A stretch of 33,295 bases of DNA from Acidipila sp. (GTDB taxonomy: Bacteria > Acidobacteriota > Terriglobia > Acidiferrales > UBA7541). Made by a program: the position numbers and the translations under genes. Of the stretch, positions 14,909 through 27,242 are shown piece after piece; within the stretch, counting starts at the first letter, position 1, and every line of letters starts with the position of its first letter. Below the pieces are notes generated by a model that saw only the letters and a list, made by a program, of their open reading frames with translations, ran no database searches and was not told the origin of the DNA. The stretch is taken from NCBI GenBank assembly GCA_010365215.1, contig JAAFGT010000006.1:134663-167957 (forward strand). Reading direction: 5' to 3'.

Positions 14909-14926
14909 TGAGGCCCCTGTGCCTCA
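14909..14926. terminator. Short hairpin between convergent genes (weak terminator candidate)
   Basis: TGAGGC, a six-base loop (ccctgt) and GCCTCA form a perfect six-base-pair stem in the 45-bp gap between the convergent dehydrogenase and TPR genes. It overlaps the TPR stop codon. No T-tract follows on either strand, so it may be only a weak or bidirectional stop. Confidence 0.3.
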
Positions 14927-17215
14927 GCCTCCCAGCGACGTCAGCGCCTGGCGCATCTCCGCGGCGTGTTCGGACTTCGGATCGATCTGCAACGCACGGC
15001 GAAAATGCTCGCGCGCCTTGGCCTTGTCCTCCGTCTTCTGATAGACCAGTGCGAGATGATAGTGGTAGGTGGAATTGTCGGGAGATTGCCCCAAAGCTTC
15101 TTGCAGTAGATCGATTGCCAGCCCGTAAGCCCCTTTGCGGTAATAGACCCAAGCAAGCGTGTCAGCGATGTTGGAAATAGTGGGCAATTGCCGGCGCGCG
15201 CTCTCTGCCAGCGACAGGGCCACGTCGGTGCTCCCGCCATTTTCGACCAACAGATAGGCCAGGTTATTAGCCGCCAAGGGGTAGTCGGGTTGAACCTGCA
15301 AGGCCTTCTGGTAAAGCTCACGGGCTCGCGGGATGTTATGGCGCGATTCCTCGAGCACGCCTAATAGGAGAAATGCCCGGGCATCCTGCGGGTTGTCCTT
15401 TATGCTCTTCTCGAAGTTGGCGACGGCCTGCTCGAGCGAACCACGCTGCACCTGCACCTGGGCAAGAGTCAGCAAGGCATCCACGTTATTGTTATCGAGC
15501 GCAACCGCCTTATTAAGCGCTGTTTCGGCCTTTTCGGCGTCTCCCGCATCGATATAGGCCTGGGCCAGCATCGCCTGGTAGTAGCTGTTGTTCGGGCTTT
15601 TCGCGATTTGCGCATTGAGGCGGGCAATCGCCTTCGCCGGCTGTTTTTGTTGAAGATCAGAGCTGACCAGATACTGCATGGCCTCGGTAAAGCCTGGATC
15701 TTTTTCCAGCGCCTGCTCAAAGAATTTCTGCGCCTCGGCATTTTTCTGCTGGCGCATCCGCAGCACGCCGAGCTGGGTATAGACGGCTGGATCGTTGGGA
15801 GCGAGAGCGAGGGCATGGCGCAAATCCGAATCGGCGCCGGCCATATCCGCGGAATTGGACTTGGCCAATGCCCGCAATAGGTATCCAGCTGTGGCTGTGG
15901 GTTCGATATTGACGAGCGCTTCGGCGCTGCTTTTGAGCAGGCCGATGTCACCCTTGCGGATAGCGACAGCGGCCAGGGCCTGGTGACCTTCGGACATCGA
16001 CGGCCGAAGCCTTATTGCTTCGCGCCACGCCGCTTCTGCGCGCGCCAGGTTGCCGACCTGGGCAAACGCGACGCCGAGATGATACTGCGCGACGGGATTA
16101 TCGGGCTCGGTGCCCAGCGCCGCTTCGAGGACCTGAATGGATTCAGGAGCGCGTTTTTGGCGGAACAGAATCTGGCCCTTGAGAACTAAGGCATCGACAT
16201 CTTTGTCATTTTCTTTCAGGATCTCATTGTTAAGCTTGGTGGCGTCGTCGAGTTTATTTCTCAAGATCAGGATCTGGACATAGTCTCTCTTGAGCCGCTT
16301 ATCTTTCGGATACTGGCGGTAGAGCGAAGCGAACTCATCCGAGGCCTTGTCGACATCGCCCAAGGCGAAATAAAAATCACCCAGCAGGCGGTATCCATCG
16401 GGATTATCGTGCAAGGTTTTTTTGGCCTGCTGCAGAAGCTGTTCGGCGTCGGCGCGCCTGCCGCGAACCACCATCAACCGCGCCAGTGTGGCCACGGGAA
16501 GATAGTTGGTGGGGTCCGCCTGCATAGCCAGGCGGAGCTGCTGCTCGGCCTCGTCCCAGCGCTGCAACTCTTCGTAAAAATTGCCCAGCGTCAGACGGGC
16601 GGTAATGGACTTGGGATCAAGCTGCAAAGCCTTCTTTAAACTCGCTTCCGCGGCCGGAACCTGCTGCGCACCTGCTTGCAGCATGGCCAGATTTAGATAC
16701 GAGCGCGAGCGGTCGGGGGCAATCTGGATGGCCTTTTGCATCTCGTCGAGCGCAGCGGGCATGTTCTGAAGCCCGGCATAGGAATTCGCCAGCAGAATGT
16801 GGGCCTCGACGTTGTTGGGTTCAATACTCAGGGCGCTGCGGGCATGGTCCTGTGCTTGATTAAATTTATCAGCACCTCCCGCAACCAGCACAAGGTTGCC
16901 GTAATCAATTTGCCCCTTCACGTGGTTGGCATCCAAGTCGAGAGTGCGCTGCAATTCCCCGGCCGCCCCGGAGAGGGCTCCAAGTTTCAGATAGGCCTGA
17001 GAGAGCTGGTAGTGCGCTTCGACGAAACGCGGATCCACTTGCAACGCGTTCTGATATTGGATGGCCGCTTCGCGGTACTTGTCCTTAGCCAGGAAGCGGT
17101 TGCCGCTCTCCAGATATTTCTGTTTGCGGACGTTGGGATCGCGGGTACAGCCGGCCATGAAACAGGAGGCCAGTACCAGAAAAACCAGTGCGGAACTTAA
17201 TCGTTTCTGCATCAT
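14924..17215 (-). CDS. Large TPR lipoprotein of the exosortase/EPS system (PrsT-like)
   Basis: 763-residue protein made almost wholly of tetratricopeptide repeats, about 18-20 units of 34 residues, recognisable by recurring A-x3-Y/F-x3-L and P-N/D-N patterns. The N-terminus is a lipoprotein signal (MMQKRLSSALVFLVLASCFMAGC) with the lipid-attached cysteine at residue 23, so it should sit in the outer or inner membrane facing the periplasm. Large TPR proteins of this kind (PrsT) accompany exosortase systems and TPR proteins such as AlgK help assemble polysaccharide secretion complexes. It starts 12 bp after the EpsI gene and is the last gene of the exosortase operon. The exact partner is inferred from context. 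Confidence 0.85.
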   Translation of the reverse strand: MMQKRLSSALVFLVLASCFMAGCTRDPNVRKQKYLESGNRFLAKDKYREAAIQYQNALQVDPRFVEAHYQLSQAYLKLGALSGAAGELQRTLDLDANHVKGQIDYGNLVLVAGGADKFNQAQDHARSALSIEPNNVEAHILLANSYAGLQNMPAALDEMQKAIQIAPDRSRSYLNLAMLQAGAQQVPAAEASLKKALQLDPKSITARLTLGNFYEELQRWDEAEQQLRLAMQADPTNYLPVATLARLMVVRGRRADAEQLLQQAKKTLHDNPDGYRLLGDFYFALGDVDKASDEFASLYRQYPKDKRLKRDYVQILILRNKLDDATKLNNEILKENDKDVDALVLKGQILFRQKRAPESIQVLEAALGTEPDNPVAQYHLGVAFAQVGNLARAEAAWREAIRLRPSMSEGHQALAAVAIRKGDIGLLKSSAEALVNIEPTATAGYLLRALAKSNSADMAGADSDLRHALALAPNDPAVYTQLGVLRMRQQKNAEAQKFFEQALEKDPGFTEAMQYLVSSDLQQKQPAKAIARLNAQIAKSPNNSYYQAMLAQAYIDAGDAEKAETALNKAVALDNNNVDALLTLAQVQVQRGSLEQAVANFEKSIKDNPQDARAFLLLGVLEESRHNIPRARELYQKALQVQPDYPLAANNLAYLLVENGGSTDVALSLAESARRQLPTISNIADTLAWVYYRKGAYGLAIDLLQEALGQSPDNSTYHYHLALVYQKTEDKAKAREHFRRALQIDPKSEHAAEMRQALTSLGG

Positions 17216-17227
17216 GCGATGGATACC

Positions 17228-17887
17228 TTAGTCCTCAGGGATATAATTGTTAAGGGTTGGCAGAATGCCTTCCGCAAAGCCCACGACACGGGTCTCGGCA
17301 GACTGAATATCTTCGGAGCGGCCGACCGGGGTGGTGACGCGGACCAGCGAGCCGTCGCTGCGTCCCGTGCGGATGGAGTCCGCCACCAGATAGATTTTAG
17401 CCCAGTATTCGCTGGCCACTACACGGCCGTGGGATTGATACCAGTAGAGAACCAAATCACGGTCAAGACCTTTGCCGATCAGATAGCGGTTCACCACGAC
17501 GCGACGCCCGTCCGGATAACTAAGCTGGCGATAACCGCGGGCAAGGGGAGACCATCCGGCTCCCGGCAAACAGTTTTGCGGTGAGTGCATGGTATCGCCA
17601 GCGCGCTGGCTGGGGAAATAGGCGATGAACAGATCAACCGGCGGAATCGGCAGGGGCTGACGGTAAAGCCTCACCATGAACTCGCCGGCTCCCAGGACTT
17701 TTAGCACCGCGGAATCGAGTTGAAAAGCCTTTCCCGTCCAGTCTCCCAGGACCATGGGAAATTCTTCCAGCGGGCGACGGGTACCGGCGGGTTCAGGCTG
17801 ACGATGGGCTTCCAGGAAGAGCGCAACGCCCAGCAGCATCGCTGCGACGGCGGCGAAACGGAGCCAAATCTTAGCTGGATTACTCAC
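17228..17887 (-). CDS. epsI: EpsI-family protein (exosortase-associated)
   Basis: 219-residue protein from the GTG at 17887, which overlaps the exosortase stop as GTGA. A longer frame reaches 17977 but lies inside the exosortase. It has one N-terminal membrane helix (about residues 8-25) and a periplasmic domain of the EpsI/DUF3485 type, with LGDWTGK, FIAYFPSQRAGDTMHSPQNCLPGAGW (H101 and C106) and the later WYQSHGRVVASEYWAK. EpsI proteins are found beside or fused to exosortases and are needed for exopolysaccharide production in Methylobacillus. The conserved His and Cys suggest a catalytic role that is not established. Overlap with the exosortase gene implies coupled translation. Confidence 0.9.
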   Translation of the reverse strand: MSNPAKIWLRFAAVAAMLLGVALFLEAHRQPEPAGTRRPLEEFPMVLGDWTGKAFQLDSAVLKVLGAGEFMVRLYRQPLPIPPVDLFIAYFPSQRAGDTMHSPQNCLPGAGWSPLARGYRQLSYPDGRRVVVNRYLIGKGLDRDLVLYWYQSHGRVVASEYWAKIYLVADSIRTGRSDGSLVRVTTPVGRSEDIQSAETRVVGFAEGILPTLNNYIPED

Positions 17888-18795
17888 GCGCGCTGCTCCG
17901 GGTGTTTCGGCCAGAACTTCTGCAAGAGTATGTGGAACAGGAAAAGCAGGCCCAACGAGAGCACGAAAATAACCCATCCTTCGAATTCGTGAAAAAAGCC
18001 CTGCGCTTTATCCGGATCCCAATACTGGCCAAGAAGACCTGTGCCCGTCACGCGCAGTGCATTGGCCATGACGGCGATGGGAATTGCTGCCAAGGCAAGA
18101 AGCGCCCGCCGCGTGCGGTTGGGTTCGAGCAAGTAGCCATAGATCAAGGCCAAAGTAAGCAAAGAAACTAACGAACGGATGCCGCTGCAAGCCTCTACCA
18201 CTTCCAGTGACATGGAGGCGAGCTGGATCACGTTTCCGTCCCTGAGAACGGGCACGCCGAGCAGTGAAAGCAGAGCCGTTGCCATACGAGCGGCCAGCAA
18301 CTGGAGAGGAAAGGCGATCTGATTGAAAAGGATCGCGGGAATCGGAATCATAAGAAATAGAAACGCCCAGGGAAAGGCCATGGCGCGCAGCCAGTTCCAA
18401 CCCAGCAGCTGGATGACGATCCCGGCCAATAGCAGAATTAGCGACGTGCGCGACAGGAAGAGCTCGGCGCCCAACACTCCCACTACTAGAATGGCCAGCG
18501 ACCCGCCGATGATCAAGAGTCCCGTCCACGAAGGCCGTAAGGCAAGCTCAGCCAGCCGGTGCCGCCTCTCCCAGAGGATGTAGCCAGAGAACAACGGAAC
18601 GAAGAACCCGTGGGAAAAGTTCGGGTCATTAATCCACTGAAGAACCAGCCGGATCAGAACATCGTGGTAAAGAAGTCCCAGGAGCAGCACTAAAGCTGCA
18701 GCCTGCCCCCACCACACCTTTGCGGAGGCCAGACCGAGCGAGGCCGGCCGTATCATGGCGCGTTCACTCATTAAGTTACTGTGCTCAGCCGACAA
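17884..18795 (-). CDS. Exosortase (membrane transpeptidase of PEP-CTERM-type sorting)
   Basis: Eight-or-so-helix membrane protease that cleaves C-terminal sorting signals and links proteins to a surface molecule. The 303-residue protein has the diagnostic triad: Cys203 in VVEACSGIRS, Arg248 in NALRVTGTG and His269 in FFHEFEGW. NFSHGFFVPLFSGYILW and MIPIPAILFNQIAFPLQLLAA are also family hallmarks. The start is taken as TTG 18795, eight bases after GAGGGA and 17 bases after the predicted sigma54 transcription start. ATG 18771 (MSERAMIRP) is an alternative with a poorer ribosome binding site. First gene of the exosortase-epsI-TPR operon. No substrate with a PEP-type C-terminal signal is encoded in the window. 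Confidence 0.93.
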   Translation of the reverse strand: MSAEHSNLMSERAMIRPASLGLASAKVWWGQAAALVLLLGLLYHDVLIRLVLQWINDPNFSHGFFVPLFSGYILWERRHRLAELALRPSWTGLLIIGGSLAILVVGVLGAELFLSRTSLILLLAGIVIQLLGWNWLRAMAFPWAFLFLMIPIPAILFNQIAFPLQLLAARMATALLSLLGVPVLRDGNVIQLASMSLEVVEACSGIRSLVSLLTLALIYGYLLEPNRTRRALLALAAIPIAVMANALRVTGTGLLGQYWDPDKAQGFFHEFEGWVIFVLSLGLLFLFHILLQKFWPKHPEQRA

Positions 18796-18822
18796 TTAGA
18801 TAGTCCCTCACGCCGAGATGAG

Positions 18823-18838
18823 AGCAAGCCGGCTTCCA
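18823..18838 (-). promoter_or_regulatory. sigma54 (-24/-12) promoter of the exosortase operon
   Basis: Minus-strand TGGAAGCCGGCTTGCT matches the sigma54 consensus TGGCAC-N5-TTGCW at 9 of 11 fixed positions, with the required GG-N10-GC spacing. With -12 at 18824 the transcript starts near 18812, 17 bases before the TTG start of the exosortase. It shares 15 of 18 bases with the opposite sigma54 promoter at 19210-19225, including the trailing TTGCTCT. Confidence 0.7.
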
Positions 18839-18921
18839 TGCTCTGCCATTGCGAGGAATTGCGAAATTTAACCATAATCGGCCCGGGGATGAGCGTTATC
18901 TGCCAAAAGACGCTCACAGTA

Positions 18922-18956
18922 GGGAAAATATTTTCCCATGAAGGAAAACATTTTCC
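18922..18956. promoter_or_regulatory. Tandem palindromic operator/enhancer between the divergent promoters
   Basis: A perfect 16-bp palindrome GGGAAAATATTTTCCC (18922-18937) is followed after five bases by GGAAAACATTTTCC (18943-18956), which is palindromic except for its central two bases. The centres are exactly 20 bp apart, so both face the same side of the helix. They lie about 128 bp upstream of the exosortase start site, the usual distance for a sigma54 upstream activator site, and about 297 bp from the plus-strand start site. Confidence 0.7.
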
Positions 18957-19209
18957 GAAGCGCCCGACAGCGGCACGTCTACTCCCAACTCTGTGACGAT
19001 AGGGAGTATACAGCATTTATGAGATGCGTGAATGTCGCCAAGAGGCAAACTGAGACAGAAAGTGGGCACAAAATTTCCACTAAGTGGTAAAATTATAGGG
19101 ATTCGAAGCGAGTCGCTCGGAACGCATTCTGGGTCCTTTTCGCTTGTAAGTTATTGAACACAGCTATTTTAAATGAAATTTACGTTAAATGAATCAGTGC
19201 GATGATGGC
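18957..19209. other. Rest of the divergent control region
   Basis: No gene is supported in this part of the 495-bp gap. It contains an A+T-rich tract around 19150-19195 that could bend DNA between enhancer and promoter. It also holds two smaller inverted repeats: CCACTAAGTGG (19077-19087), about 154 bp upstream of the plus-strand sigma54 start, and AGCGAgTCGCT (19107-19117). Short frames here (for example minus 18771-19016) have no family resemblance and no ribosome binding site. Confidence 0.5.
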
Positions 19210-19225
19210 TGGAACCTGCCTTGCT
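19210..19225 (+). promoter_or_regulatory. sigma54 (-24/-12) promoter before the AAA+ regulator and EPS genes
   Basis: TGGAACCTGCCTTGCT matches TGGCAC-N5-TTGCW at 10 of 11 fixed positions with correct GG-N10-GC spacing. With -12 at 19224 the start is near 19236, giving a 55-base leader before the regulator ATG. It resembles the divergent exosortase promoter closely (15 of 18 bases), which argues for shared control. Confidence 0.75.
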
Positions 19226-19290: not shown

Positions 19291-20262
19291 ATGTCTTCGA
19301 GAGTTGCCGCATCGATTGGCTCGACCGACGTCTTGGCGCCTGAGGGCACCAAACCGTGCTACGTGCGTGCGGTCAGTCCGTCTATGTACGCTATTGAGCA
19401 CGTAATAGCCGATATTGCGCCGACCGATATTTCGGTTTTGTTGGTGGGAGAAAGCGGCACAGGAAAAGATGTAGTGGCGTTTCAAATCCACCGCTTATCG
19501 CCCCGGTGCCAGAAACCTTTTCGAAAGTTGAGTTGTTCCTCGTTGAGTCCGGAGGCGCTGTTCCCGGCAATGGAGAATGGAGGTTCGCGCCGATCCGGTG
19601 GGCAGGGTGGAACGCTGTATCTTGACGAAGTAAGCGACCTCTCGTCTGCGGCGCAGGCGCAACTGCTGCAGGCGCTTTCGGAGGGCGAGCTATCCTCCGG
19701 TGAAGGCGTCAACGAAAGATTAATCTGCGCGACGAGCCGGAATCTGGAAGAACAGATGCGCGCGGGCCGCTTCCGGGAGGAACTTTATTTCCGCATCAAC
19801 GGCGTTTGCCTGCGGCTGCCGCCGCTACGCCACCGGCAGGAAGACCTCACGGGTCTGGCCGATTTTTTCCTGGGGAAATACGCGACGCTGTTCGAGCGGC
19901 CGCAGCCTGCCCTGAGCAGGCAGGCGCTGGGGCGTCTTCACCAGCATCAGTGGCCCGGTAACATCCGCGAGCTTGAAAACTCGATGAAAAAACTGGTGGT
20001 TTTGGGCGACGAAGGAATGGCCGTGACCGATCTGGGGCGCCTGCCGCAAGAAATTCCTGCGGCGCCCAACTGCTCGAGCGGCATCTCATTGAAGGAGGCA
20101 GCTCGCGCTGCTTCGCGGCAAGCGGAGCGCGAACTGATCCTGAAGGTGCTCGGACGGACGCGATGGAATCGGAAGCGGGCCGCTTTGGAACTTAAAATCA
20201 GCTATAAGGCGCTGCTTTACAAACTCAAGCAGATTGGGTTGGATGATTTGGCGGGGAGCTAA
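19291..20262 (+). CDS. AAA+/Fis regulator of the sigma54-activator family lacking GAFTGA
   Basis: 323-residue transcription regulator with an enhancer-binding-protein ATPase and a C-terminal Fis-type helix-turn-helix (about residues 270-318, ending RKRAALELKISYKALLYKLKQIG). Walker A is GESGTGKD (53-60), Walker B GGTLYLDEV (106-114), and the arginine region FREELYFRIN (161-170) is normal. The segment that should carry GAFTGA reads LFPAMENGGSRRSGGQGG (90-107): the sigma54-contacting loop is absent and the region is several residues short. Only about 25 residues precede the ATPase, so there is no receiver or sensor domain. ATG 19291 follows GGAGG by five bases. It may bind the palindromes at 18922-18956 and control both divergent operons, but how it would act on sigma54 is unclear. 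Confidence 0.88.
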   Translation: MSSRVAASIGSTDVLAPEGTKPCYVRAVSPSMYAIEHVIADIAPTDISVLLVGESGTGKDVVAFQIHRLSPRCQKPFRKLSCSSLSPEALFPAMENGGSRRSGGQGGTLYLDEVSDLSSAAQAQLLQALSEGELSSGEGVNERLICATSRNLEEQMRAGRFREELYFRINGVCLRLPPLRHRQEDLTGLADFFLGKYATLFERPQPALSRQALGRLHQHQWPGNIRELENSMKKLVVLGDEGMAVTDLGRLPQEIPAAPNCSSGISLKEAARAASRQAERELILKVLGRTRWNRKRAALELKISYKALLYKLKQIGLDDLAGS

Positions 20263-20285: not shown

Positions 20286-20945
20286 ATGAAAATGAGACGA
20301 ACCCTTTTAGCGCTGGCGGCGATGGTAATCACATTCACCGGGGCTGCCGCCGCGCAGGAAGCAGCGGAGGAGAAGGCCGAGAAGCAGGCCGAGAAGGCCG
20401 CGAAGAAGCCGGCAGTGGTGCCCGCGGCGCCGGCTGCGGCGATGAAGTCCGCCATCGAAGATCCGGACTACATCATCGGCCCGGAAGACTCGCTGGCGAT
20501 TAACGTGTGGAAAGAGACTGAGCTCTCGCATGCCGTCCAGGTGCGCCCCGACGGAAAAATTTCACTGCCGCTGTTGAATGACTTGCAAGCGGCCGGGCTC
20601 TCGCCGCAGCAGCTAGCGGCCTCTATAACCGAAAAATTGCGCAAATTTATAGCCGAGCCCCAGGTCACGGTGATCGTGACGGGGATTCTGAGCCGGCGCA
20701 TCTACATCATGGGAGAGGTGGGCAAGCCTGGGGCGGTTCCTCTGCTGCACGGCATGACCGTGCTGCAGGCGCTCAGCGGGTCCGGAGCATTCAGCCAATT
20801 TGCGGATACACGAAAGATTTATATCCTGCGAAATGAAAATGGCAAGCAAGTGAAATATTTGTTCAACTACAAAGAAGTTATTAAAGGGCGACACACGGAA
20901 CAGAACATCGAACTGAAACCGGGCGACACCATCGTGGTGCCGTGA
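20286..20945 (+). CDS. Polysaccharide export protein (Wza/EpsE type)
   Basis: 219-residue secreted protein with a Sec signal (MKMRRTLLALAAMVITFTGAAAAQ) and no lipobox. The polysaccharide biosynthesis/export domain starts at YIIGPEDSLAINVWKETELS (about 62-81) and continues with VRPDGKISLPLLNDLQAAG, then one SLBB-type beta-grasp module (IYIMGEVGKPGAVPL) and the terminal LKPGDTIVVP. It should form the periplasmic/outer-membrane outlet for the polymer. Between signal and domain is an unusual 20-residue Glu/Lys/Ala-rich stretch. A GGGGAGG ribosome binding site precedes the ATG, 23 bp after the regulator gene. Single-SLBB, lipobox-free forms are typical of exosortase-linked loci. Confidence 0.92.
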   Translation: MKMRRTLLALAAMVITFTGAAAAQEAAEEKAEKQAEKAAKKPAVVPAAPAAAMKSAIEDPDYIIGPEDSLAINVWKETELSHAVQVRPDGKISLPLLNDLQAAGLSPQQLAASITEKLRKFIAEPQVTVIVTGILSRRIYIMGEVGKPGAVPLLHGMTVLQALSGSGAFSQFADTRKIYILRNENGKQVKYLFNYKEVIKGRHTEQNIELKPGDTIVVP

Positions 20946-22413: not shown

Positions 22414-23961
22414 ATGCTAGGTCAAAGAAATTTATCCCCTGAAGAATATGTGGATATCTGGCGGCGCCGGAAACTGTGGCTGCTGGTTAGTGTGGTGTTC
22501 GGGACCTTAGCCGGATTCGGACTGACCCTGGTTCTCCCGGCGAGGTATACCTCGTCCACCCTGGTATTGGTGGAGCAGCCCAAGGTTCCGGAGAACATCG
22601 TCAAGTCCTCGCTAAACGACCCGTTGGGGCAGCGGCTGGCGTCGATGCAGGAACAGATCCTGAGCCGTTCGCGACTGGTACCGATGATCGAACGGTTCAA
22701 TTTGTACCCGGTGGAACAGCGCAAAAAGGTTCCCATGGAAGATTTGGTTGCGGAGATGCGCAAGAACATTACCGTTGCGCCGATTAAACCACCAGCGGGA
22801 AGCAAGCCGGACGCGTTGCTGCCCGGCTTTACGATTGCGTTCACCGCGGAAGATCCAAAAATTGCGCAAGGAATTTGCCAGGAAATCACCTCCATGTTCA
22901 TCGAGGAAAATCTGAAGGTGCGCGAACAACGCGCGCAAGGCACTACCGACTTCCTGGTCAAACAGCTGGAGGAAGCCAAGCGTGATTTGGACCAGCAAGA
23001 CGCGAAGATGGCGGACTTCAAACGGCGCTACAGCGGACAGTTACCCGGGCAGGAAACAGGAAACACCAACGTATTGATGACCCTAAATGCACAATTGGAA
23101 GCAGCGACTTCGGTGCTGAACCGCACGCAGCAGGACAAGGCATTCTCCGAATCTTTGCTGGCACAACAAGTGGCGGCCTGGGAAGCCTCGCAGGCCGGAA
23201 GCAATCCGGTGACGATTGATCAGCAACTGACCATCCTGGAGGCCCAGTTGGTAACTCTGGAAGGACGATACACTCCGGATCATCCGGATGTAATCAAGGC
23301 GCGCGCCGATGTGGCCCAGCTTAAAAAGAAACGCGAAGAGGCGAATAAAGCCCTGGGCACAAAGACCGGGGACGGCAGCCAAAAGGCCAACCTGAGCGAG
23401 CCGCCGCAGATTCTCAATTTGCGGACGCAGATCCATCAGTACAAGCAGACCATTGAAGAGAAGACCCGGGATCAGCAGCGTCTCCAGCAGCAGATCAACA
23501 TTTACCAGGCTCGCGTGCAGGGCAGTCCGATGGTCGAAGAGCAATTCAAACAACTGACGCGAGACTACACGATCTCACTCAACAAGTATGACGAACTGCT
23601 GCAAAAAAAGAATTCCTCGGAGATGGCGACGGATCTCGAGCGACGCATGCAGGGCGAGCAGTTCAAAGTAATGGACGCGCCCAATTTTCCCGATGCCGCT
23701 TCATTTCCTAATCCTGTCTACTTCACGCTGGGTGGCCTGGCCGGAGGATTGGCTCTCGGATTTGGATTAATGGGGCTGCTGGAATTCAGAGATAAGGCCA
23801 TACGCAACGAGCGGGATATCGAGTTCTTCCTGGAATTGCCCACACTGGCTCTGCTGCCGGCCATAGGGCTGCAGGCTACCAACGATAGCGGTGGATTCTG
23901 GAAGTTCGGCAAGAAATCCGGCAACAGCGAGAGCGGCCGGACGATGGGACTCGAGGACTAG
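22414..23961 (+). CDS. Polysaccharide chain-length determinant (Wzz/PCP family)
   Basis: 515-residue inner-membrane protein that sets polymer length. A first membrane helix (about 21-42, LWLLVSVVFGTLAGFGLTLVL) is followed by the Wzz domain (YTSSTLVLVEQPKVPENIV), a long periplasmic coiled coil (about 180-400, with QLEEAKRDLDQQDAKMADF and repeated QQ-rich heptads), the Pro-rich VMDAPNFPDAASFPNPVYF segment and a second helix (about 435-458). It has no kinase domain; the ATPase and the BY-kinase are separate genes downstream. The Wzz-OMP-ATPase neighbourhood matches the PEP-CTERM locus chain-length protein. Starts seven bases after GGAAGG. Confidence 0.93.
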   Translation: MLGQRNLSPEEYVDIWRRRKLWLLVSVVFGTLAGFGLTLVLPARYTSSTLVLVEQPKVPENIVKSSLNDPLGQRLASMQEQILSRSRLVPMIERFNLYPVEQRKKVPMEDLVAEMRKNITVAPIKPPAGSKPDALLPGFTIAFTAEDPKIAQGICQEITSMFIEENLKVREQRAQGTTDFLVKQLEEAKRDLDQQDAKMADFKRRYSGQLPGQETGNTNVLMTLNAQLEAATSVLNRTQQDKAFSESLLAQQVAAWEASQAGSNPVTIDQQLTILEAQLVTLEGRYTPDHPDVIKARADVAQLKKKREEANKALGTKTGDGSQKANLSEPPQILNLRTQIHQYKQTIEEKTRDQQRLQQQINIYQARVQGSPMVEEQFKQLTRDYTISLNKYDELLQKKNSSEMATDLERRMQGEQFKVMDAPNFPDAASFPNPVYFTLGGLAGGLALGFGLMGLLEFRDKAIRNERDIEFFLELPTLALLPAIGLQATNDSGGFWKFGKKSGNSESGRTMGLED

Positions 23962-23972
23962 GAAACCTGACC

Positions 23973-24896
23973 ATGTATAAGAAGTTTTTTGGACTGCGAG
24001 AAAATCCCTTTAACGTGAACCCGGACCCGCGGTTCCTGTTTCCCACGCGGCATACCGAGGAAGCGCTGGCGGTGCTGACCTATGGCATCCAGAGCCGCAA
24101 GGGATTCATCATGCTCAGCGGCGAGGTGGGCACCGGGAAAACGACCCTGCTCAACAAGCTGTTGGACTGGCTGCATCGTGAAAACGTGGCCACCGCGTTC
24201 GTGTTCAACCCGCGGCTGAACGTCATGCAATTCATGGATTTCATGATGGCCGATTTCGGTATTGTCTGCGACTCGAAGATGAAGAGCCAAGTTCTGCTCA
24301 AATTGAATTCGTGGCTGCTCGAGCGTTACCGCGCCGGCGAGACGGCCGTGCTTATCGTGGACGAAGCCCAGAACCTGTCGCCGCAGGTGCTGGAAGAAAT
24401 TCGCCTGCTCACCAACCTGGAGACCTCCACCGAGAAGCTGTTGCAAATCGTGCTGTGCGGGCAGCCGGAGCTTGAACACAAGCTCAACCAGCCTCAGCTT
24501 CGCCAGCTCCGGCAGCGTATCACGCTACGCTGCCGCACCCATTCGCTTACGCCGGAGGAAACGGCCGGATATATCGCCGACCGGCTGCGTGTGGCCGGCG
24601 CGGACGGCGCGGTTATCTTTACACCCGAGGCCATCGACGCCGTACAGCAGTATTCCCGCGGCATCCCGCGAGTAATCAACCTGCTCTGCGAACACGGCTT
24701 GATCAGCGGATTTGTAGATCAGAAGCGACCCATTCAAGCTGAAACCATTACAGAAGTTGCGCGTGAATTTGATTTGCACGAAATTGATCCCATTGCCCAG
24801 CCCGTTACGGTTCAAACGAATGGCGAGAATGCCAGCCTGATGGAGGCGCTCCAAAATCTGGCTACTCTGGTCGATCGGCTGCGCCGGCCGAACTAA
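23973..24896 (+). CDS. GspA/ExeA-type AAA+ ATPase of the exosortase EPS locus
   Basis: 307-residue cytoplasmic ATPase beginning MYKKFFGLRENPFNVNPDPRF, the signature of the XrtA-associated (TIGR03015-type) and ExeA families. Walker A is GEVGTGKTT (50-58), Walker B is AVLIVDEAQNL, and the sensor region LLQIVLCGQPELEHKLNQPQLRQLRQRI is intact. The C-terminal helices (to about 280) are the lid. The protein ends without the peptidoglycan-binding domain found in ExeA. Gene start overlaps the ribosome binding site placed at the end of the chain-length gene, indicating a single operon. Its precise job in polymer assembly is not known. Confidence 0.9.
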   Translation: MYKKFFGLRENPFNVNPDPRFLFPTRHTEEALAVLTYGIQSRKGFIMLSGEVGTGKTTLLNKLLDWLHRENVATAFVFNPRLNVMQFMDFMMADFGIVCDSKMKSQVLLKLNSWLLERYRAGETAVLIVDEAQNLSPQVLEEIRLLTNLETSTEKLLQIVLCGQPELEHKLNQPQLRQLRQRITLRCRTHSLTPEETAGYIADRLRVAGADGAVIFTPEAIDAVQQYSRGIPRVINLLCEHGLISGFVDQKRPIQAETITEVAREFDLHEIDPIAQPVTVQTNGENASLMEALQNLATLVDRLRRPN

Positions 24897-24923
24897 GTCA
24901 GCGAATAACGAGAGAGGATTCCG

Positions 24924-25844
24924 ATGAGCCGTATCCACGAAGCCCTGAAAAAAGCGGAGCAGGAAAAGGCCCCCACATTGCCGGTTGGTGCAGGCAGCGC
25001 GGGCGGGATGTCGCATGCGGACCCGGTGACCGCGGAGCCCGTCCGTATCGCGGCACCGTCCATGGCCGCCGTGGCGATAGCACCTCCGGAACCGCTTGCC
25101 GGCGAATCCATGCTGGCGGCGGCGCGACGCCCAGCATGGCATGCCGACCCGACCAAACTGCTCTTTCTGAATCCACAGACCCAGGGATTCGGCGCCGAAC
25201 AATTACGCACGCTACGCTCGCGGCTCTACCAGATACGCGACCGGATGCCGCTCAAGACCCTGCTCGTCACCAGTGCGCTGCCCGCTGAGGGCAAAACTTT
25301 CGTGGCCGCGAATCTGGCGCAGACCTTTGTGCGCCAGCATGAACGCCGGATTTTGATCATCGACGCCGATCTGCGATGGTCGCGAATGCATGCCCTGCTG
25401 GGTGCTCCGGCCGATCCTGGCCTGACGGAATACTTGCAAGGCCACGCGACGGCGTCCGAAATTCTGCAGCGAGGTCCGCAGGATAACCTGTTCTTCATTC
25501 CCGGAGGAAAGTCCGCTTCCAACCCGGCCGAGCTTCTCCATTCCGGGAGATTAAAAATCCTGCTGGACAACCTGACGCCGCTTTTCGATTGGGTCATCCT
25601 GGATTCGCCGCCCGCCGTGCCCGTTTCCGATTCTGCGTTGCTCGCGGATTTGTGCGATGGCGTGCTGTTGGTGGTTCGCTCGGGGGTCACACCTTTCGAC
25701 GTGGCGCAAAAGATCAGCATGGAATACCGCGAAAAGCGCCTGGTGGGCGTGGTGCTGAATCGAGTGGACAAGCGGCAAGCCGACACGGCGTACGGGTACG
25801 GATATTACGATTACCCGCGCAATCCAAACGAAAATTTGAACTAA
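24924..25844 (+). CDS. BY-kinase-like tyrosine kinase (CpsD/CapB family)
   Basis: 306-residue P-loop ATPase of the bacterial tyrosine-kinase family. It starts MSRIHEALKKAEQEK, as exosortase-locus kinases often do, followed by a low-complexity Pro/Ala linker to about residue 70. Walker A is SALPAEGKT (117-125), Walker A' ILIIDADLR (143-151) and Walker B WVILDSPPA (223-231). The tail is a tyrosine cluster (AYGYGYYDYP), the expected autophosphorylation site. It has no membrane helices, so it should be activated by the chain-length protein at 22414-23961. GAGAGGA lies five bases before the ATG. Confidence 0.92.
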   Translation: MSRIHEALKKAEQEKAPTLPVGAGSAGGMSHADPVTAEPVRIAAPSMAAVAIAPPEPLAGESMLAAARRPAWHADPTKLLFLNPQTQGFGAEQLRTLRSRLYQIRDRMPLKTLLVTSALPAEGKTFVAANLAQTFVRQHERRILIIDADLRWSRMHALLGAPADPGLTEYLQGHATASEILQRGPQDNLFFIPGGKSASNPAELLHSGRLKILLDNLTPLFDWVILDSPPAVPVSDSALLADLCDGVLLVVRSGVTPFDVAQKISMEYREKRLVGVVLNRVDKRQADTAYGYGYYDYPRNPNENLN

Positions 25845-25865
25845 GGCAATCGAGGCTAGGTCGAA

Positions 25866-27242
25866 TTGGTCAGGCTGTTCAACGTCTATTATCCGAAGCG
25901 CTTCCTCATCTTGTTGGGAGGCGAGGCGCTGCTATTGTCCTTGTCCTTTCTCCTGGCGGCGGTTCTGCGCCTGGGGGAAGATTCTTCGCTGGTGCTGAAC
26001 GACGAGAACGGCTACTTTAAAATCCTAGCGGTGACGGTTCTAGCTCTCCTCTGCCTCTATTATCTGGATCTTTATGATTATCAGAAACTGCGCACGGTCG
26101 GCGAAACCTATTTCCGCCTGCTGCTTTTCCTAGGCTGCTTTTCGTTCCTGTTGGCGGCGGTAAGCTATCTGTTTCCCGCGATCATTATGGCCAACGGCGT
26201 ACTGCTGCTCGGTTTGGGGATTTCCGGGATTTCCCTGCTGTCCTGGCGCGCCGCTTATGGCTGGATGCTTACCAAGCCCTATCTTCGCGAGCGCGTTTTC
26301 GTTTTGGGGACCGGGACGCAAGCCTCGTTACTGGTGGAATGTCTGCGCTCGCGTTCGGAGCTGGGTATGGAAGTGGTGGGATGGGCCGGCGAGGTGGGCG
26401 AGAGTGCCGGCACGCGCGAGCAACTGGGCAAGAATCTTCTGGCGGCTGCTGGAAATCGCGGACTGCATCGCATTGTCGTAGCGTTGTCCAACCGCCGCGG
26501 CACCATGCCGATGAACGAGCTGCTCGACCTGCGATTGCAAGGCGTGAAAATCGAGAACGCCGCGGACGTGCTGGAGCGAATCTCCGGCAAGATCGAGGTG
26601 GACGGTCTTAATCCCAGCTGGCTGATATTCGCCGAGGGATTCAACTTGAACTCGCCGATTCTCTTCCTGCGGCGAGTAAACTCTCTGCTCTACTCGCTGA
26701 TGCTTTTGCTCGTTTCACTACCGCTGATCCCGTTCATCATCCTGGCCATCAAGTTCGATTCGCCCGGAGCCGTGCTCTACCGCCAGAAGCGGGTCGGGAG
26801 GCTCGGGCACATTTTTAATTGCTACAAGTTTCGCACCATGCGTCCTGATGCCGAGGCGGATACGGGTCCCACCTGGGCAGGAGATGACGATCCGCGGATC
26901 ACCCGCGTGGGCCGCTTCCTGCGCAATACGCGCATGGACGAGATCCCGCAACTCATCAACGTGGTGAAGGGCGATATGGCCTTCGTCGGGCCGCGGCCCG
27001 AGCGTCCTGAATTCGTGGAGTGGCTCAGCCGGGAGATTCCTTTTTACAGTCTGCGTCACATCGTGCGCCCGGGCGTCACCGGCTGGGCGCAGATCAGTTA
27101 CCAGTACGGCGCTTCGCTCGAAGAATCGAAGGAAAAACTCCGCTACGACCTTTACTACGTAAAACATCTGTCCATGGCCTTTGACCTGTTCATTATTTTC
27201 CAGACCGTGAAGGTCATCTTGTTCGGCCGCGGTGCAAAGTGA
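25866..27242 (+). CDS. Undecaprenyl-phosphate sugar-1-phosphate transferase (EPS priming enzyme)
   Basis: 458-residue membrane protein that transfers a sugar phosphate to undecaprenyl phosphate to begin each repeat unit. The N-terminal half has about four to five helices and a CoA-binding-like fold (RERVFVLGTGTQASLL). The C-terminal catalytic domain (about 275-458) has a membrane-entry helix, then RQKRVGRLGHIFNCYKFRTM, the DDDPRITRVGRFLRNTRMDEIPQLINVVKGDMAFVGPRPERPEF block and GVTGWAQISYQYG. The layout is the TIGR03013-type sugar transferase of PEP-CTERM loci. The first possible start is TTG 25866, with AGG six bases upstream. The sugar transferred cannot be told from sequence. Confidence 0.93.
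   Translation: MVRLFNVYYPKRFLILLGGEALLLSLSFLLAAVLRLGEDSSLVLNDENGYFKILAVTVLALLCLYYLDLYDYQKLRTVGETYFRLLLFLGCFSFLLAAVSYLFPAIIMANGVLLLGLGISGISLLSWRAAYGWMLTKPYLRERVFVLGTGTQASLLVECLRSRSELGMEVVGWAGEVGESAGTREQLGKNLLAAAGNRGLHRIVVALSNRRGTMPMNELLDLRLQGVKIENAADVLERISGKIEVDGLNPSWLIFAEGFNLNSPILFLRRVNSLLYSLMLLLVSLPLIPFIILAIKFDSPGAVLYRQKRVGRLGHIFNCYKFRTMRPDAEADTGPTWAGDDDPRITRVGRFLRNTRMDEIPQLINVVKGDMAFVGPRPERPEFVEWLSREIPFYSLRHIVRPGVTGWAQISYQYGASLEESKEKLRYDLYYVKHLSMAFDLFIIFQTVKVILFGRGAK

Follow-up and report, generated by a model that had tools for sequence, protein, structure and literature searches.

The pair of palindromes at positions 18922–18956 of the window, the 33,295-nucleotide stretch of DNA analysed here (C7:134663-167957 of the organism's own genome, G000), is probably a UAS (enhancer) for the sigma-54 promoters of an exosortase/EPS gene cluster. 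This reading is suggested by the scores that models trained on paralogous loci give to the sites, by a preferred spacing between sites, and by the -24/-12 elements found 70–200 bp from them. The sites themselves, their pairing and conservation, their co-occurrence with -24/-12 elements, the membership of the regulon, and the loss of a loop from the adjacent regulator, EBP1, are features legible in the DNA and its translations. The activator that fires these promoters is probably a paralog of EBP1, encoded elsewhere in the genome.

The named relatives of highest identity are Acidobacteriaceae/Terriglobales assemblies, which makes the genome acidobacterial, probably from Terriglobia. The locus consists of two divergent transcription units with about 500 bp of intergenic DNA between them. 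The minus-strand unit encodes an EpsH-family exosortase (XrtA-like), EpsI, and a PrsT-like TPR protein. The plus-strand unit starts with EBP1, followed by genes for polysaccharide export, chain length, an ATPase, a tyrosine kinase, and a sugar transferase. The features of the locus are as follows:

14924–17215, minus strand: PrsT-like TPR protein (TIGR02917, 338 bits, above the cut-off)
17228–17977, minus strand: EpsI/DUF3485 exosortase partner, assigned by family searches
17884–18795, minus strand: exosortase of the EpsH family (PF09721, E=3.6e-78; XrtA-like, 228.6 bits against a cut-off of 208)
18823–18838, minus strand: predicted -24/-12 (sigma-54) promoter of the exosortase operon, TGGAAGCCGGCTTGCT, with 0.60 identity to relatives
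18922–18937, no strand: putative UAS site 1, GGGAAAATATTTTCCC, a perfect 16-bp palindrome (26.2 bits, EBP2-only model)
18943–18956, no strand: putative UAS site 2, GGAAAACATTTTCC (20.2 bits, EBP2-only model)
19062–19081, no strand: putative proximal UAS, GTGGGCACAAAATTTCCACT, a weaker palindrome (10.2 bits in cross-validation, EBP2-only model)
19210–19225, plus strand: predicted -24/-12 (sigma-54) promoter of the regulator–EPS operon, TGGAACCTGCCTTGCT, one mismatch to the consensus
19291–20262, plus strand: EBP1, a stand-alone AAA+ and Fis-HTH bEBP of 323 aa (Pfam Sigma54_activat, HTH_8)
20286–20945, plus strand: polysaccharide export protein of the EPS operon (PF02563; TIGR03027, 169.4 bits, cut-off 180)
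22414–27242, plus strand: EPS chain-length determinant, ATPase, tyrosine autokinase, and sugar transferase genes (TIGR03007, TIGR03015, TIGR03018, PF02397)

The start codon of the exosortase gene is likely the ATG at 18771. An 81-aa ORF at 18771–19016, which overlaps the sites, had no family match and was set aside.

A sequence-only reading had described a perfect and a near-perfect palindrome with a 20-bp centre spacing, and this is what stands at 18922–18937 and 18943–18956. The centres lie at 18929.5 and 18949.5, exactly 20 bp or two helix turns apart, and site 2 has perfect 6-bp arms, whereas its CA centre lacks self-complementarity. The own genome (4.1 Mb) contains three copies of the 14-mer GGAAAANNTTTTCC, two of them forming the window pair, and no copy of the reversed control pattern. 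When GGAAAN4TTTCC was sought twice at a 20-bp period (10+10 specified bases) in 61 related Acidobacteriota genomes, the window was the single exact match. The other matches at this period, with up to two mismatches, lie upstream of Fis-type bEBP genes (in G002, G010, G014, G021, G025, and G031), with one exception. Matches at a 21-bp period, at the same tolerance, include the G010 ortholog of the window site (one mismatch) and a homologous site of G010 and G021 located between ABC-2 transporter and glycosyltransferase genes.

The exception is a 42-bp tandem repeat in a distant genome (G059:C14:5088-5395), whose GGAAA/TTTCC arms mimic the pair. Single palindromes with up to two mismatches, of which the own genome holds 467, were rejected as uninformative; the one-mismatch single sites examined lie mostly within ORFs, unpaired and without a promoter.

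A motif model trained on the upstream regions of relatives, with the window left out, was used to scan the regions upstream of 61 bEBP genes. A site above 12 bits was present in 42 of these 61 regions, versus 2.5% of dinucleotide shuffles, and the spacing of paired sites peaks at 19–22 bp, with 20–21 bp preferred. The pairing at about 20 bp recurs upstream of the EBP genes of relatives; some EBP1 loci retain single sites only. The circularity of training on the scanned regions is removed by cross-validation between EBP1 and EBP2. For 12 of 25 EBP1 regions (1.2 expected), the model built only from EBP2 upstream regions gave scores beyond the 95% shuffle level, and the converse model did so for 16 of 22 EBP2 regions (1.1 expected). 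Upstream regions of EBP3 remained at chance level in these tests (1 and 0 of 14). With the window-free model, a correctly oriented -24/-12 element was found 70–200 bp from 35 of 65 sites (54%), versus 7.2% of random positions; the p-value of 4e-23 for this co-occurrence overstates independence, since the genomes are related to each other.

At the locus itself, sites 1 and 2 are 91 and 111 bp from the minus-strand -24/-12 element, and their midpoint is about 270 bp from the plus-strand element. The separations of about 128 and 297 bp that had been proposed are those between the middle of the pair and the transcription starts that the minus-strand and plus-strand elements, respectively, predict. 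Equivalents of the exosortase promoter occur at loci where the exosortase gene is divergent, e.g., TGGCAGAGCTATTGCT. The proximal site at 19062–19081 is a weaker copy of the pair's palindrome, located 138 bp before the plus-strand promoter, and the UAS-to-promoter distance at loci of EBP1 orthologs is mostly 125–140 bp. With a site of its own at a conserved distance, the plus-strand promoter does not need the long-range looping from the pair that had been suggested for it. A -24/-12-like match at 19064–19079 was rejected as a promoter and reread as this proximal UAS, given the missing -12 GC and the conserved promoter at 19210.

When the intergenic region is aligned with five relatives, site 2, the proximal site, and the promoters stand out as its best-conserved blocks. 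The most conserved 16-mer is the plus-strand promoter (0.79). Site 2 has 0.77 identity, with 16-mers over it reaching 0.73, and the third most conserved block, around 19062–19081, reaches 0.69; the remainder of the region has 0.34. Conservation relative to flanking DNA had been named beforehand as one of the points on which the palindromes could fall, and the values are 0.77 for site 2 against 0.34. Site 1, as aligned, has an identity of only 0.44, which counts against the UAS reading. Taken with the recurrent pairing and the distance to a -24/-12 promoter, the conservation supports an enhancer-type site upstream of the exosortase promoter.

Promoter regions with a site in the own genome are those of the exosortase, EBP1–EPS, EBP2 (with a pair at 21 bp), and diguanylate cyclase genes and of C91:1069. 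Among relatives, sites accompanied by promoters lie in front of exosortase, EBP1–EPS, EBP2, kinase–EBP3, diguanylate cyclase, prsT, sugar transferase, export, and ABC2/GT2 genes; not every site in this list is paired and also comes with a promoter. The proposal that such palindromes would precede EPS or sorting-substrate genes thus held for the EPS genes and failed for the sorting substrates, as PEP-CTERM genes were rejected as targets of the motif (1 of 35 with a site above 13 bits).

Several side observations concern the reach of the regulon. At G000:C91:1020-1340, two UAS sites spaced by 20 bp, together with a strong -24/-12 element (TGGTACGTCAATTGCA), stand before a lysine-rich ORF of 34 aa (MAKKKLKKLKKLKKLKKGKKLLPTKTLGVRDHSN), possibly a small peptide of the UAS regulon. 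The diguanylate cyclase gene, located between EBP2 and the kinase–EBP3 pair (G000:C7:209138-214047), comes with a site and a -24/-12 element of its own, a hint that c-di-GMP may control the regulon. Both in G000 and in relatives, many PEP-CTERM genes are preceded by a -24/-12 element, and about 90–124 bp before that element lies a different palindrome, TGCAA-N4-TTGCA. This motif is exploratory, having been picked after looking, and may possibly mark a second enhancer class, for sorting substrates.

Between the Walker A and Walker B motifs, EBP1 and the 24 orthologs placed in the tree lack the segment LESELFG..GAFTGA, and these 25 proteins form one clade (support 100/99). EBP1 has no receiver domain. 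Walker A does not vary among 20 orthologs, nor does most of the HTH; in three others, from Acidobacteriaceae/Terriglobales assemblies, the loop is also missing and the Walker motifs are degenerate, with the site and promoter kept. Across Terriglobia-type Acidobacteriota, the EPS operon linked to the exosortase appears to have retained EBP1 as its first gene. Its structure model (pLDDT 79) has the bEBP fold, with PDB matches to 1ojl, NtrC1, PspF, and VpsR. The last of these (7v2b) is itself GAFTGA-less and a regulator of exopolysaccharide.

Contact with sigma-54 is made through GAFTGA, and bEBPs that lack this motif have been reported at sigma-70 promoters (PMC10274813). By established bEBP biochemistry, EBP1, which has no such loop, should not activate sigma-54 alone. 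The earlier suggestion that the adjacent Fis-type regulator is the binder is only partly supported: the HTH fits, and the loss of the loop speaks against self-sufficient activation. GAFTGA-bearing paralogs are preceded by the same kind of site. EBP2 (own copy at G000:C7:207686-208660, 40 kb from EBP1) carries GSFTGA, has no receiver, and has a paired site in front of it; such EBP2 genes with paired sites also occur in genomes where EBP1 was not found. With its loop present and its sites independent of EBP1, EBP2 would be the most likely activator, with EBP3 next, and the chance that it is the main one firing these promoters is about even.

The mechanism that best accounts for these features would work as follows, although we infer the identity of the binder, the assembly of the ring, and the sign of EBP1 action. 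The UAS, with a consensus of roughly AGTGGAAAA-NN-TTTTCCACT, would be recognised by stand-alone sigma-54 activators with the recognition helix ISY[KR]ALLYK. Two dimers on one face of the DNA, 20 bp apart, would nucleate an AAA+ ring, and looping of the DNA would bring this ring to the sigma-54 RNA polymerase at the exosortase promoter 91–111 bp away. The weaker single site at 19062–19081 would act likewise on the divergent EBP1–EPS operon, 138 bp away. The ring would be formed mainly by EBP2, with the kinase-linked, receiver-type EBP3 as the next candidate. EBP1 probably binds the same sites, would be unable to engage sigma-54, and would serve as an autogenously controlled modulator. In its simplest form this modulator would be a brake, a suggestion that we hold tentatively, at somewhat under even chances. 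In other words, EBP1 may be a dedicated pseudo-activator, a former sigma-54 activator that lost its contact loop and shares paired enhancers, or mixed rings, with its active paralogs, thereby providing the exosortase/EPS sigma-54 regulon with a brake of its own; this fuller form is an equally tentative proposal. The rpoN gene was not found in the own, 97.8%-complete assembly with TIGR02395 or PF04552, which counts against the sigma-54 reading. As 37 of the 41 genomes searched do have it, an assembly gap is the likely cause.

Among other readings, the one that survives best, though it is doubtful, makes the pair the site of EBP3, a two-component analogue of PrsR that would directly activate EBP2, EBP1, exosortase, and EPS genes. 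EBP3 combines a receiver, AAA+, and HTH with a GAFTGA loop and an adjacent kinase, its recognition helix (ISYKALLYKMRQ) is similar, and sites occur near kinase–EBP3 operons. Moreover, G017 has sites together with EBP1 and EBP3, and EBP2 was not found there at the threshold used; the sites may thus have binders other than EBP2. However, no site lies immediately upstream of EBP3 itself, its HTH reads WSRKEAA rather than the WNRKRAA of EBP1 and EBP2, and the TGCAA-N4-TTGCA palindrome before PEP-CTERM genes offers an alternative EBP3 site.

It is unlikely that EBP1 alone binds the pair and activates the exosortase promoter as well as that of its own operon, whether by way of sigma-54 in spite of the lost GAFTGA or through a sigma-70 promoter, as is reported of the GAFTGA-less NtrC of Rhodobacter and Caulobacter. 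Its adjacency, its nearly invariant HTH, its Walker A (invariant among the 20 orthologs), and the sigma-70 precedent favour such a role, but the conserved elements beside the sites are -24/-12 promoters, sites stand at EBP2 genes where EBP1 was not found, and the three orthologs with degenerate Walker motifs fit it poorly. Short AT-cored palindromes are common operators across many regulator families, yet it is very improbable that the pair is the operator of a repressor unrelated to bEBPs and near them by coincidence, as it tracks bEBP genes and -24/-12 promoters in tens of genomes at characteristic distances.

The preferred reading, a sigma-54 UAS shared by EBP1 and its paralogs, resembles a known arrangement. 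A UAS and sigma-54 element at PEP-CTERM genes, with PrsR/PrsK, was described by Haft et al. 2006 (PMC1569441) in Proteobacteria only, and the authors of this proteobacterial code expected others. Both systems combine a UAS and a -24/-12 promoter with an NtrC-like bEBP in an exosortase/EPS setting, and the upstream motif of the PrsK/PrsR system is sometimes duplicated, as the pair is here. The motifs differ: GGAAAA-N2-TTTTCC here, and there a 17-mer (motif 1) ending in TTTACA (PMC1569441). Sites here are found mainly before exosortase, EPS, and regulator genes, theirs before PEP-CTERM genes; the UAS spacing is 91–138 bp here and about 63 in theirs; and the adjacent bEBP, unlike PrsR, has neither receiver nor GAFTGA. 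TIGR02915 scores were 190.6 bits for EBP1, 298.3 for EBP2, and 377.4 for EBP3, all below the cut-off of 502.6. As motif, targets, spacing, and adjacent regulator all differ, the system is not classed with the PrsK/PrsR PEP-CTERM box despite the like layout.

Like the NtrC proteins of Rhodobacter capsulatus and Caulobacter and VspR (PMC10274813), EBP1 is an AAA+ bEBP that has lost the L1/GAFTGA loop. Unlike them, it lacks a receiver-like domain, the conserved promoters at its locus are of the -24/-12 type, and it coexists with GAFTGA-bearing paralogs preceded by the same site. SypG and LuxO are both GAFTGA-type response regulators, which EBP1 is not. In Vibrio fischeri, these two bEBPs activate one sigma-54 promoter, that of qrr1 (PMC10162802), and SypG belongs to the syp polysaccharide system, a setting comparable to the EPS genes here. 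Searches of open-access papers turned up no description of the motif and none of a regulator without GAFTGA at EPS loci of Acidobacteria. The motif and its loop-less partner appear to be undescribed, and the mechanism is of a known kind.

The system would represent a second, distinct cis-regulatory code for exosortase systems, this time in Acidobacteriota; its motif, promoters, candidate activators, and list of genes are all open to direct testing. The analysis also brings out a conserved clade, related to sigma-54 activators, whose members have lost the contact loop and are still wired into sigma-54 promoters. In effect, the action of EBP1-type proteins as antagonists, as ring partners, or as sigma-70 regulators becomes testable.
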